Assembly: GCF_040054535.1 (NCBI RefSeq) | Contig: NC_090785.1 | Location: 13,677,501 to 13,741,500 of the forward strand | Direction: 5' to 3' | Length of the DNA stretch: 64,000 nucleotides | Source: Antennarius striatus | Taxonomy: Eukaryota; Chordata; Actinopteri; Lophiiformes; Antennariidae | Shown: positions 42,168-63,329 of the stretch, piece by piece | Position numbering within the stretch: position 1 is the first letter of the stretch | How the letters are laid out: each line of letters starts with the position of its first letter | Translations under genes and position numbers: made by a program | Notes under the pieces: generated by a model | Seen by the model: only the letters and a program-made list of their open reading frames with translations | What the model was told of the DNA's origin: nothing | Databases searched by the model: none

Positions 42168-45100
42168 TCACTGCAGCAGTGACATGAGGGCCCTGCAGTC
42201 CCTCAGTCTGTCCAGTTCCTCCACCACACCAATTAGATCCTCTATATTCTCGGAGGGCAGGACAGTCGCTGCGTTGTTTCTGAACTTTTTCCTGAGGCTC
42301 TCATCGGTCAGTGGGTTGCGCCAGTGACCATAGAAGGTGTCACAGTGCCCCTTTAGAACGTCTCCTCCAACGAGAGTCACCTGAACTTCACCATACATGC
42401 GGTTGAAATTAGCTGGGTTGTCATGGGGATGCTCCACACGGACACAATTTAGCAGAGCATGCAGGTCAGGGCGCATCATTGCGGCGGGTGTGAAGGACCA
42501 CACAGTCACCTCGCCGTCCAGGAGAGCGCTGCAGGCGTTGAACTGGAAGGAGTGGCGCGCCTCGTGCTCAGACTCAGGAAAAGGCCTGTTGATGTACTTT
42601 GATTTGGGGACTCTGAGCAGAATTTCTTGGACTTCTGCTGGAGACACAGTGCCAGGACCAAACCCAACGAGAAGCTTATGGACTGAGGCTGCAGCATCTG
42701 TCACCCAGTGCATCCCCAGATGGGCTGGGAAGCGCTTGAAGCCCATGTCCTGCTCCTCCAGCAGGAACATATGGCCATCGCTGGGTGATTGCAAAGGCTG
42801 CGGTGCATAGTCTTCATAAAAAGCACTGAATCCTGCCACCCCAGCAACAGCATCAAGAACCAGAGCACTCGCCTCAAGGCCTCGGGAGGCGAGCAGGGCA
42901 GCCTCTAACCCCAAACGTGAGGCATTGCCAATGTGGAGGGGTTTAGACTGAGTGGCAGCATTAGCCATTGGGGCTCCTGATAGAGAAGCAGCTATAGCCA
43001 AGGCATGGCTGCACTGTGACTGATCCAGAGACAAGAGGCGAGCACAGGCAGCTGCACTGCCCATGGTCCCAACCACACTGGGAGGATGAAACCTTTTGAT
43101 GAAGAAGGCAGAAAGAAAGAGCTATTGAAATATTTGGAATGATGTATAGTTTGACTCGTCAATAAACCTATAACAATGCTTGTTTCTGTATAACTGCTCC
43201 TTTACATAACCCTCCGCCTGCAGTCACATCATATGTAGCAGGCGATGTTAGAAGAGATGGATTTTTACTACAGTAATTTCAGTCTTTGACAAGAACAGAG
43301 ATCATGTGGTTTTTAACCTCACCTTGTGTACACAGCAGCCAAAAAGCATTTGATTTACCCTCACACTAATTGTGCTGGAACTACCCACAGAGATTAACAT
43401 AATGACATGCCATTCAGCGCTCACTGAAAGCAATAAGTGAATGCACATTATAGTACAATAACCTTACTGTAAACTACATGGCACAGACACAGAGCTGATC
43501 TCATTAGGCTGGTGTGAATACTTGCTCTCTTTGCAGAACATACATACAATGATTTTTGAAAATGTACTGACATTATATCTGTTAAGTGATCTCCCAGTGA
43601 GGTCCAGCATACTTCAAAAACTACTTGCGATGTTGTTATTAGCTCATAATTGACATCATCTTGATTCAATTTGACTGTGTTCAGAGGCACTCACCTCTTG
43701 GGGATGTTGTGGGCCTCATTAGAGAACCTCATGAGTCTGCCCTGGATCTCAATGCCGACATTGAAGGACAGCAGAATGTCCAGGCCACTCGGCTTGCTGT
43801 TAACAGGTATCATGTCACTGAGTGCTAACACAGCAGGGAGCACTGCGCCTGAGGGATGAGTGGCGGGGTGCCATGTATCATCAAAATCCATGGCGTGAGT
43901 CTGCATGACAGAAAAACATGCACACAAAAAACAAAAGAATGTAAAATGTGGTGCACAGAGTTGCATGGTTATATTACAGACAAACATAGCATTTTTATGC
44001 ATCATGCAATAGACCTAGCAGATTAGCTGGTTGTACATAATTAGAATTGTTTGTTTTTTGGGTTTTTGTTTTTTTTTGCAGACTTGTCAAGTGGATTTAT
44101 TCCAGTATTTTTTCATCAACCTCACTTGTGTGTGTGTGTGTGTGTGTGTGTGTGTGTGTGTGTGTGTGTGTGTGTGTGTGTGTGTGTGTGTGTGTGTGTG
44201 TGTGTGTGTAATCAATGTTTCTGGCCATGGTAATGGTTTGAGTGCACTGGGGAAAATTGAGACCTATCTCTTTCCACTATTTATACTCACAGCCACTCCA
44301 TTGACAAAAGCTGCCAGTGTTGGGGAGAGCCTGGTGCCGCTGCGTCCGTACACAGTGCTGATGTCATCAGGAGCGTACATGTACTGAAGGGGAAACAGAC
44401 ACAAACAGACACAAACACACGGCTTTGTCAGGATTATTTTCAAGTCAGTTCTGCAGTCATAAATAAGTATGTAAGTAAGTACAGTGAGTGAGTAAGTAAG
44501 TAAGTGAGTAAGTAAGAAAGTAAGTAAGTAAGTAAGTAAGTAAGTAAGTAAGTAAGTAAGTAAGTAAGTAAGTAAGTAAGTAAGTAAGTAAATAAATAAA
44601 TAAATAAATAAATAAATAAAATAAAGAATAAATAAAACAAGCCCTGCAAACTGTTGCAAGTGAGAGAAAATGAATCATTAAACTTGTGTCTGAACTCAAT
44701 TTACATCATGAAACTCAATCAATAATAAAAAATTTTGTACTCATCTCAATTGCAATCTGTTTATTTATAGTCACTTAGACTATTGCTTTCACCAGCCTTA
44801 TCAACTCATACTAAATGAGAAATCCTACAAAACCCATTGCTGTCTTTCCTGCCTCACCTGGCAGTGCTGCAGAGCCAATTCAAACACATCTGTTGTGCTG
44901 CCGATCAGACCGACTCCAATGCTGTCCAGGACCATCCTCTTGCTGCGGTGGAGCACTCTGGAGGACAAGTGCTGAGGTTTGACTTCACTGATAAACCTCC
45001 CAAAGCTGGCTGTGACTGTGTCCTCAGGTGCCTGATATTTAACCACTGCATTGGGAAAAAGCAAAAGGAAGATAGAAAAAAGAGTAGATTGACTTAGTTT

Positions 45101-45620
45101 AATTGTCTAAAAATAAAAAAACAGCGGTTTGTGTCATGAAAGAGGGTAAATTAAATACGAATACATCAAATGTTAAATGTACCTTCCACTGCAGCCTTAT
45201 GAAGCCCTCTGGCAGTACAGACTGGTCTTAGAGTTTTCTGTAGAATAAAGAGTACAGAATATATTTACTGGCATATTCAGTAAGTGTTTGATGTAATGCA
45301 CCTATTTTAATTTTTTTTTACATTTTAGATCCTCAATAGGCTGTGAACATAGATCTCATTTAATTTCAGCTTACATTTGGATCACAGAGATAAATATCCC
45401 TGGTTACCCTGCATTCCACAGCTATTTTACTGCTGTGGTGGTGCCGTAATGAGTATAATATGGCATATTCTAAGATATTACACTCACCTGACTATGTGCA
45501 CAAAAACACTTGCACAGTGCATTTTATTTGTAAAGATTTGTATTAAATTCTGCTAGACTACATGTAACAAACACTACAAAACAAATATCTTTAAGTTCTT
45601 ACCTGGAATCTGGAGATCAT
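42168..45620 (-). CDS. acod1: cis-Aconitate decarboxylase (IRG1)
   Basis: ACOD1 decarboxylates cis-aconitate to itaconate in mitochondria of activated macrophages; itaconate is antibacterial and inhibits succinate dehydrogenase. Six coding exons on the minus strand are phase-consistent: 45603-45620, 45183-45237, 44858-45045, 44291-44383, 43695-43900 and 42168-43092, giving 494 residues (human 481). The MmgE/PrpD-family signatures are MDFDDTWHPATHPSGAVLP, RFHPPSVVGTMGSAAA, APMANAATQSKPLHIGNA, FKRFPAHLGMHWVTDAAAS and NRPFPESEHEARHSF. They hold the aspartate, histidine, lysine and tyrosine positions reported as catalytic in the human enzyme. The first 24 residues (MISRFQKTLRPVC...) are basic with no acid until Glu24, which suits a mitochondrial leader. 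A TATA box lies about 100 bases upstream. The gene is head-to-head with gene A. Confidence 0.96.
44126..44210. repeat. (GT)n microsatellite in an acod1 intron
   Basis: About 42 GT units in the intron between acod1 exons 4 and 5, roughly 80 bases from the exon 4 donor. GT/CA runs beside splice sites can bind splicing factors; no effect can be claimed here. Confidence 0.96.
44467..44627. repeat. (GTAA)n/(TAAA)n compound microsatellite
   Basis: A GTAA run with a few substitutions passing into TAAA repeats, in acod1 intron 3. The leucine/tyrosine/threonine-rich open frames on the minus strand come from the repeat. Confidence 0.95.
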
Positions 45621-46004
45621 GTTCTCCGAAGTCTCTCTTCACTCTTCTTTTTCAAATTGTCTGATGCAAATGGTTTGGAGTCTAATTCTGATGCTTTTTG
45701 GATAGGGATGGTACCTGCCTTATATAGACCACAACTTAATGATTGCTAATAGTGGACTGGGCGGAAACAGGGAAGTGCAACCTAATCCATGAGGAAATTA
45801 CACGAAGATGAGGAATTTCCACAGTTGTCAAAACCATCATTATTATCATCATTGTTATAAATAGCATCACCCTCCTCAGAAAAGTAGGAAGAATGAGCAA
45901 CAATTAAGTATGTCCTCAGGTTACAGACTCTAGGGTGGCATCAGGGAATTTTCACAAACTCCACCCACAAGCACCTTATTTAGGAAAAACTGTCCCCCCT
46001 GCTT
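45621..46004. promoter_or_regulatory. Divergent promoter between acod1 and gene A
   Basis: On the minus strand a good TATA box (CTATATAAGG) lies at 45718-45727, about 100 bases before the acod1 start codon. On the plus strand a weaker TTATTTAG near 45977 precedes the probable gene A first exon. Between them are two NF-kB-like sites: GGAATTTCC at 45812-45820 (the symmetric nine-base kB core) and GGGAATTTTC at 45944-45953 (one mismatch to GGGRNWYYCC). A CCACCC box lies near 45961. The layout suggests shared, inducible control. The motifs are seen; their use is inferred. Confidence 0.6.
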
Positions 46005-62172: not shown

Positions 62173-62296
62173 TTTTATACAGTCATGTACAACAGGTGGC
62201 TCAGTAACATTGACTTGACAAATGTGGAATAAACACTGCAGATGACCTACGCCTTGTTTTTCCAATTGTCTTTGTTTTGTGTGCGTCACAGAAACC

Positions 62297-63329
62297 ATGG
62301 TGAAGCGTGTAGCAGTGATTCTCTCAGGCTGTGGAGTTTATGATGGAACAGAGATCCATGAAGCCTCTGCTATTCTCGTCCACTTGAGTCGAGCTGGAGC
62401 AAAAGTAAGAGAAGTAAATGTACCTGTTATTGTATTTCAAACGTATTGATTCAGTCCTATCGGCTTTAAATATTAAAAAGGCCTGAGAACGTGCATTTAC
62501 AGATGATGGTACAGCTGTAAAAATATTACATGGCTGTATTTTATCACAGGTGCAGATGTTTGCTCTTAATGCAGATCAGATGCATGTGGTAAATCACTGT
62601 GAGGGGAAGCCAACAGAAGGGAATAGGAACATCCTGCAGGAAAGTGCCCGCATCGCCAGAGGAGATGTGACTGACTTGGCCAAGTTAGAAGTCAGCGAAT
62701 TTGATGCTGTCATCATGCCAGGTTAGAGAAGAGTCTCAGAATTACGCTTTCACTTGTCTTTTATTTTTCAAACACAACATTAGGGTTTATGTCTTTTGCG
62801 ATATGAACTCTGTGTTTTGATTCAGGAGGTTTTGGTGTGGCAAAGAACCTGAGTAACTGGGTAGTGAAGAACAAAGACTTCACCATTGAGCCACAGGTAG
62901 AGAAGCTCATTACAGCTTTCCACAAAGCTGGGAAGCCACTGGGCATGTGCTGCATCGCCCCCATCCTCGCTGCCAAAGTCTTTCCTGGCTGTGAACTCAC
63001 TGTTGGATCAGATAACGCGTGTGAAAGGTGTGCAAACAATATATCATCACAAGATGTTGAAACGCCTTACCAGACGATGAAGTGTTCTTAATTCACAGCT
63101 CTCGCATTTTGTGTCCTTTCATCCTGTGTCCTTTAGGTGGCCATATGCTCAGACTGTTGGTGTTTTGAAGGAGATGGGCTGCAAACATGTCAACACAGAT
63201 GTGGATGTAGCACATGTCGATGTGAAAAATAAACTGGTCTCCAATTGTGCATTCATGTGCAATGCTCCCATTCATGAAGTCTTTGATGGAATAGGAGTCA
63301 TGGTTAAAGAGACACTAAAGCTGGCTTAA
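62297..63329 (+). CDS. ES1/ElbB/GATD3-type class I glutamine amidotransferase-like protein
   Basis: This belongs to the DJ-1/PfpI superfamily, ES1 branch (bacterial ElbB, human mitochondrial GATD3). ElbB is reported to have weak glyoxalase activity; the physiological reaction is unsettled. Exons 62297-62404, 62550-62721, 62826-63027 and 63137-63329 are in phase, giving 224 residues, close to ElbB (about 217) and shorter than GATD3 (about 268). It starts directly at the conserved core ([20 protein letters not shown]) after MVKR, in a good Kozak context (aaaccATGG). It therefore lacks the mitochondrial leader of GATD3 and is probably cytosolic. Also visible are [14 protein letters not shown], the nucleophile-elbow cysteines in [11 protein letters not shown], and [17 protein letters not shown]. 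The start depends on there being no upstream coding exon. The polyadenylation signal AATAAA lies near 63519. Confidence 0.92.

Follow-up and report, generated by a model that had tools for sequence, protein, structure and literature searches.

The question raised by a 64,000-nucleotide stretch of contig C10 of Antennarius striatus (the window, C10:13677501-13741500, in an assembly of 548 Mb and 42 contigs) is whether a gene of the ACOD1/IRG1 family and the three genes beside it belong together in function. These neighbours are two paralogous genes that join SatP-type membrane repeats to a Sua5/YrdC domain (fusions A and B) and a gene of the ES1/ElbB family. Our tentative answer, held with somewhat more doubt than trust, is that the locus is an old, jointly regulated vertebrate neighbourhood in which the ACOD1-family gene (irg1l), ES1, the two fusions and perhaps a PhyH-family dioxygenase share a function connected with itaconate. 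The gene models used here are our own spliced models with GT-AG introns, made from the sequence alone (the stop of fusion B was read by hand). Genome searches covered the assembly of this fish, and the evidence for zebrafish, stickleback and chicken comes from the literature.

A neighbourhood of irg1l and ES1

The four genes occupy positions 42168-63329 of the window, and every coding sequence is intact as an open spliced model. They are arranged as two divergent pairs, irg1l with fusion A and fusion B with ES1 (Table 1). The gaps between them contain a fragment of a long interspersed nuclear element (LINE), microsatellites and short open reading frames, and from a subset of these frames none of the nine non-LINE ones (six in the gap between fusions A and B, two between fusion B and ES1 and one between irg1l and fusion A) matched a Pfam domain. 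The initial annotation had described the four genes as lying side by side with no unrelated gene in between, which was borne out by the intact models, the domain matches and the content of the gaps.

Table 1. Features of the window with positions, strands and gene structures
Feature	Position	Strand	Description
irg1l	45620-42168	-	ACOD1/IRG1 family, six coding exons, 494 aa
irg1l coding exons	45620-45603, 45237-45183, 45045-44858, 44383-44291, 43900-43695, 43092-42168	-	
LINE-type reverse transcriptase fragment between irg1l and fusion A	46439-47911	-	Pfam RVT_1, 53 and 44 bits
Fusion A	48312-52244	+	ten exons, 893 aa; SatP-type membrane repeats, then a Sua5/YrdC domain
Fusion A, YrdC part	exons from 50771 onward	+	
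Fusion B	60734-56977	-	paralogue of fusion A, nine exons, 866 aa
ES1/ElbB-family gene	62297-63329	+	four exons, 224 aa
PhyH-family dioxygenase gene, last exon	63915-64000	-	gene runs to 65244, past the window; convergent with ES1

The irg1l protein matches Pfam MmgE_PrpD_C with 130 bits and cis-aconitate decarboxylase in the PDB over residues 34-493 (E 1.8e-164). All five active-site residues of ACOD1 (D93, T97, H103, H159 and K207) are identical in this alignment, and the product is probably an itaconate-making enzyme. Its N-terminus is about 30 residues longer than the matched PDB chains and resembles a presequence. PF19305 gave a single match genome-wide, irg1l itself (one of one candidate), and a genome-wide protein search with irg1l returned only its own exons (four of six candidates).

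The gene had initially been annotated as acod1, an assignment that was not supported. Human ACOD1 lies between CLN5 and KCTD12, whereas the window gene sits on C10 near nexmif- and rlim-like genes and CLN5 is found on C12. Genes with DUF4683, RING-H2 and glyoxalase domains lie upstream of irg1l, and we provisionally name them NEXMIF-, RLIM- and GLOD5-like, respectively; the first exon of the glyoxalase-domain gene lies at 33475-33810 on the plus strand. Canonical acod1 was rejected as the identity of the window gene, since the locus speaks against it and the CLN5-KCTD12 gap on C12 contains ES1 but nothing that matches ACOD1. By its locus, by the position of the chicken gene and by exclusion of the canonical locus, it is most likely the irg1l paralogue. 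Because irg1l is the only PF19305 match and the CLN5-KCTD12 gap has no ACOD1 match, the canonical gene seems to have disappeared in this fish, with irg1l remaining. In zebrafish, acod1 is located on chromosome 9, and the position reported for a deletion in it, amino acid 111, fits, by hand reading, a protein without the 30-residue extension (PMC10846535). Compared with mammalian ACOD1/IRG1 and with zebrafish acod1 and irg1l (zgc:154020), the frogfish protein belongs to the same family over nearly its full length and keeps the active-site residues, and irg1l is inducible by infection in zebrafish. Unlike mammalian ACOD1, it is flanked by nexmif/rlim-like genes instead of CLN5 and KCTD12, carries the N-terminal extension and is the sole member of the family found in this genome.

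The second anchor of the neighbourhood, the ES1 gene, is a clear member of the family that comprises ES1/GATD3 and bacterial ElbB (ElbB model NF008747: 263 bits, cut-off 180; ElbB in the PDB: E 2e-52). Another ES1 gene was found on C12, in the series FBXL3, CLN5, ES1 (here with a presequence-like N-terminus) and KCTD12; the names FBXL3 and KCTD12 were given by sequence and are presumptive. At this CLN5-KCTD12 locus (C12:18126414-18145523), the ES1/gatd3-like gene thus fills the slot that ACOD1 holds in the human order. Three introns, of phases 0, 1 and 2 as read by hand, are common to both ES1 genes. Unlike the C12 copy, the window ES1 has no presequence-like N-terminus, and its protein is predicted to be cytosolic. 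When irg1l, both fusions, ES1 and the PhyH protein were compared with the 90-kb C12 stretch of this locus, which is free of N, ES1 alone matched at E 0.1. On the minus strand of C3:26817805-26817954 there is a weak match to the ES1 family (46% identity, E 9.6e-5); it is interrupted by an in-frame stop and may be a relic.

Paralogues of KCTD12 flank the window as well, at C10:13954944 (69% identity) and C10:13451178 (55%), 213 and 226 kb from its ends; another one with 69% identity lies on C1 (11 matches among 23 candidates overall). With KCTD12 paralogues on both of them, the segments of C10 and C12 look paralogous, and in each one ES1 sits at the slot of an ACOD1-family gene. The simplest history is that a linked ACOD1-ES1 pair predates the duplication of the segment, and this linkage is probably old rather than private to one species.

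Chicken points in the same direction. The accession NC_006091.5 belongs to chicken chromosome 4. A published table lists IRG1L on this accession at 11.33 Mb and prints Z as its chromosome; the same accession also stands under chromosomes 1, 4 and 14 elsewhere in the table. Since the chromosome column is therefore unreliable, IRG1L was assigned to chromosome 4 by its accession. Chicken ES1 is LOC422305 on chromosome 4 (PMC4256799). The two genes thus appear to share chromosome 4, which together with the second ES1 gene in the CLN5-KCTD12 slot supports that the linkage of an ACOD1-family gene with ES1 is old and not private to this fish. The initial annotation had named a gene order private to this species as fatal to its proposal.

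Two fusion proteins with membrane repeats and a YrdC domain

Between the two anchors lie the fusions, announced in the initial annotation as SatP/YrdC proteins. Both kinds of domain are present in both genes, but instead of a single SatP unit the membrane part consists of repeated ones. With a cut-off of 25 bits, Pfam Gpr1_Fun34_YaaH (PF01184) recognises the first third of the membrane part in fusion A (35.9 bits) and the last third in fusion B (28.2 bits). In repeat profiles built from the paired thirds of the two proteins, the second matched the third at 97% (E 2.4e-11) and the first matched the third at 53% (E 1.3e-4), and first versus second was not significant. When the thirds were compared singly, the second and third of fusion A and the third of fusion B were related to each other, and the first and second of fusion B matched nothing. 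Hydropathy gave 17 segments in fusion A and 19 in fusion B, two of the latter in the YrdC part, so that the membrane part would hold about 17-18. Three predicted SatP-type units are well supported in fusion A; for fusion B, we infer the first two units from collinearity and length.

SatP/YaaH/GPR1-FUN34 permeases have a six-helix unit in common with the fusions, recognised by Pfam in the two thirds named, and differ from them in that the fusions carry repeats in a single chain together with a YrdC domain and show weak direct similarity. A genome-wide PF01184 search had no match among six candidates despite the two genes in the window, and hence cannot show the absence of further SatP genes. 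Searching plasmids with the first third of fusion A by tblastn gave two records, at E 0.7 only, and no description of a SatP-YrdC architecture was found in the open-access papers retrieved. A literature search for SatP in animals brought up no paper naming the family, but it was ill suited to the question and says nothing about absence.

PDB chains of Sua5 align with the C-terminal domains over their whole length (E 8e-17 for fusion A and 2.7e-18 for fusion B), and the Pfam cut-off for Sua5_yciO_yrdC was passed in two exons of fusion A. Sua5/YrdC proteins are marked by the motifs KxR...SxN and a PGPxT loop. Fusion A retains KxR...SxN (as SAN), PTDTVY and SAN are present in both fusions, and neither has an unaltered PGPxT loop. 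The fusions thus resemble Sua5/YrdC threonylcarbamoyl-AMP (TC-AMP) synthases in the aligned domain and in these motifs; they differ in the altered loop, in scores below cut-off, in the missing arginine of fusion B and in the attached membrane part.

Fusions A and B share 39% identity over residues 531-891 of A and have most introns at differing positions, which argues that they diverged long ago. The large exon of fusion B is single-copy in the genome (one match among two candidates). A further YRDC-type gene was found on C9; the YrdC part was therefore rejected as a plain housekeeping YRDC, and housekeeping TC-AMP synthesis can do without the fusions. In a prokaryote scan with an alignment of both C-termini, two loci matched, with 28% identity and in the YrdC part alone; as the scan used two short peptide patterns, it speaks only weakly against such a fusion in prokaryotes.

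Co-variation and sites of expression in zebrafish and chicken

Three zebrafish genes, si:ch211-153b23.3,.4 and.5, were taken as presumed orthologues of cluster genes. By naming custom, a common clone name in zebrafish means close linkage. That.3 and.5 are counterparts of window genes is inferred from this shared name and, for.5, also from a short span; the stickleback counterpart of.5 spans 1.4 kb, compared with 1.0 kb for the window ES1.

Several reports bring these genes together. One zebrafish infection and inflammation list contains irg1l, a YrdC-type gene and a PHYHD1-like gene (PMC6980646). After nanoparticle exposure, irg1l,.3 and.5 were hubs of a single module along with zgc:100868 and noxo1a (PMC11140123), and irg1l,.4 and.5 were among the five most strongly up-regulated genes of one group exposed to perfluorooctane sulfonate (PMC9228135). 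Table 2 of PMC8877790, a table of selected genes, allowed a correlation analysis of the 55 genes with all 18 values; tfr1b, hbbe1.2 and fkbp5 were left out for gaps or ND entries. Over the 18 conditions, irg1l,.3,.4 and.5 reached a mean r of 0.825, with single pairs between 0.645 and 0.902 (ranks 3-119 of 1485), a mean that only 8 of 200,000 random quartets attained. Joint induction, proposed in the initial annotation as a check, is therefore supported by these zebrafish reports for the presumed orthologues.

It had also been suggested that the cluster acts in activated phagocytes, and here the reports lean elsewhere. Zebrafish irg1l has been linked to epithelial cells, a review describes it as infection-induced, glucocorticoid-sensitive and located in epidermal cells (PMC7843790), and it drops in larvae without the epithelial factor Elf3 (PMC12691682). 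Yet it also rises after systemic injection. Zebrafish acod1 is described as specific to innate immune cells (PMC10846535). In chicken caecum, IRG1 was up-regulated up to 425-fold and ES1 up to 139-fold (PMC3663788); another study lists ES1 as non-leukocyte and IRG1, with the paralogue unspecified, in heterophils and macrophages (PMC4256799). By these papers, expression of the irg1l locus leans towards barrier tissue rather than phagocytes.

Explanations for the linkage

SatP transports succinate and acetate, and succinate has a close analogue in itaconate. The locus bears on the exit of itaconate from mitochondria and cells and on its action outside macrophages. If the four genes do act jointly, an inflammatory stimulus would turn on the cluster, chiefly in barrier epithelium, and mitochondrial Irg1l would convert cis-aconitate to itaconate. 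The fusions, as proteins built of succinate/acetate-permease-like units, might then act as membrane carriers for itaconate or for a small carboxylate related to it. Transport of itaconate is plausible for them because both exceed the Pfam cut-off for SatP, whose substrates are succinate and acetate, and itaconate is succinate-like. The YrdC domain, altered in fusion B and perhaps catalytic to this day in fusion A, could bind ATP and carboxylate and serve in regulation or coupling, and the putatively cytosolic ES1 would deal with reactive by-products.

A number of observations weigh against such a joint itaconate function. Four of the six membrane thirds of the fusions had no Gpr1_Fun34_YaaH match, and the NCBIfam acetate transporter model gave 25.8 bits for fusion A against a cut-off of 50 and no listed match for fusion B. 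SatP in the PDB was only weakly similar to fusion A (E 0.07 for the whole protein, 0.02 for the first third) and did not match the third repeat of fusion B. A BAG6 match in fusion A also exceeded its Pfam cut-off in one scan (27.1 bits, cut-off 25); being marginal and below cut-off in a second scan (21.7 bits), it was taken as spurious. For the YrdC part, TIGR00057 (Sua5/YrdC) scored 109 bits in fusion A and 103 in fusion B, both below the cut-off of 123.2, and the arginine of KxR is glutamine in fusion B. The fusions are missing from the C12 locus. In the expression table considered above, sult5a1 and si:ch211-207n23.2, which have no known link to the cluster, correlate with irg1l as strongly as its presumed neighbours do, and so the data show a shared regulon and not a closed pathway. 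Chicken ES1 and IRG1 would be in different cells according to the study cited above, unless another IRG1 paralogue was measured.

Some of these points suit the explanation that the genes are linked and co-induced but have separate jobs, being activated as neighbours within a common inflammation-responsive regulatory domain. The co-variation extends to the two genes without known linkage and to a general inflammation list, and divergent gene pairs favour common promoters or enhancers. Shared regulation alone explains less easily, however, why the association of ES1 with the ACOD1 family recurs at two paralogous loci whose flanking genes differ, and we consider this account somewhat unlikely, if a serious competitor.

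Another possibility is that the fusions have nothing to do with itaconate and either take up or sense acetate and similar short-chain acids of microbial origin, or work as carbamoylating enzymes tethered to a membrane. Among curated models they come closest to those of acetate transporters and threonylcarbamoyl-AMP synthases, and fusion A keeps the KxR and SAN motifs. But the fusions adjoin irg1l, a YrdC-type gene co-varies with irg1l in the zebrafish reports, and the YRDC-type gene on C9 makes them dispensable for housekeeping TC-AMP synthesis, all of which leaves this alternative rather improbable. Chance adjacency private to this species, the only one in which the four-gene order has been read, is very improbable and in its simple form was rejected, given the zebrafish co-variation of three genes under one clone name (linked by naming custom), the second ES1 gene in the CLN5-KCTD12 slot, the KCTD12 paralogues on both segments and the apparent position of chicken IRG1L and ES1 on one chromosome.

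The proposed itaconate neighbourhood invites a comparison with fungi, in which itaconate clusters are known from Aspergillus terreus and Ustilago maydis. As in those clusters, genes for a predicted decarboxylase, a putative membrane transporter and a putative oxygenase are adjacent, which is an analogy only; the transporter and oxygenase families and the organism are different. Taken further, non-mammalian vertebrates might hold an itaconate cluster convergent with the fungal ones, in which irg1l would act in barrier epithelium, the fusions would deliver itaconate as an antimicrobial acid to the mucosal surface or to vesicles, and by-products would be processed by ES1 and the PhyH oxygenase, mammals having lost the cluster and kept only macrophage ACOD1; this is speculative, and we rate it as unlikely. 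The two permease-like genes beside an inducible ACOD1-family gene lead to named zebrafish candidates, si:ch211-153b23.3,.4 and.5, pending orthology, and point to a side of itaconate biology, set in barrier epithelium, that studies of mouse and human would overlook.

The PhyH gene, which runs beyond the window, is a possible fifth member of the cluster. Its protein has 254 residues, matches Pfam PhyH with 89 bits and is nearest in the PDB to the monooxygenase 6zyk (E 1.9e-21), with human PHYHD1 further away (E 7.6e-8). As a lead, the gene may be the counterpart of zebrafish zgc:174917.

By counts of promoter consensus sequences, made without a chance control, irg1l, fusion B and ES1 have TATA-like boxes on their coding strands and fusion A has none; an NF-kB consensus was seen for none of the four genes. 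Long tetranucleotide microsatellites lie at 39401-40129 and 60440-60657 of the window, the second in the divergent gap between fusion B and ES1, within the first intron of fusion B. Past the PhyH gene there is a coiled-coil gene (3021-4599 of the downstream stretch L015, minus strand) with a sub-threshold Pfam match to a NEMO-type zipper, which we take, by a motif of TNIP/ABIN proteins, to be a relative of these.

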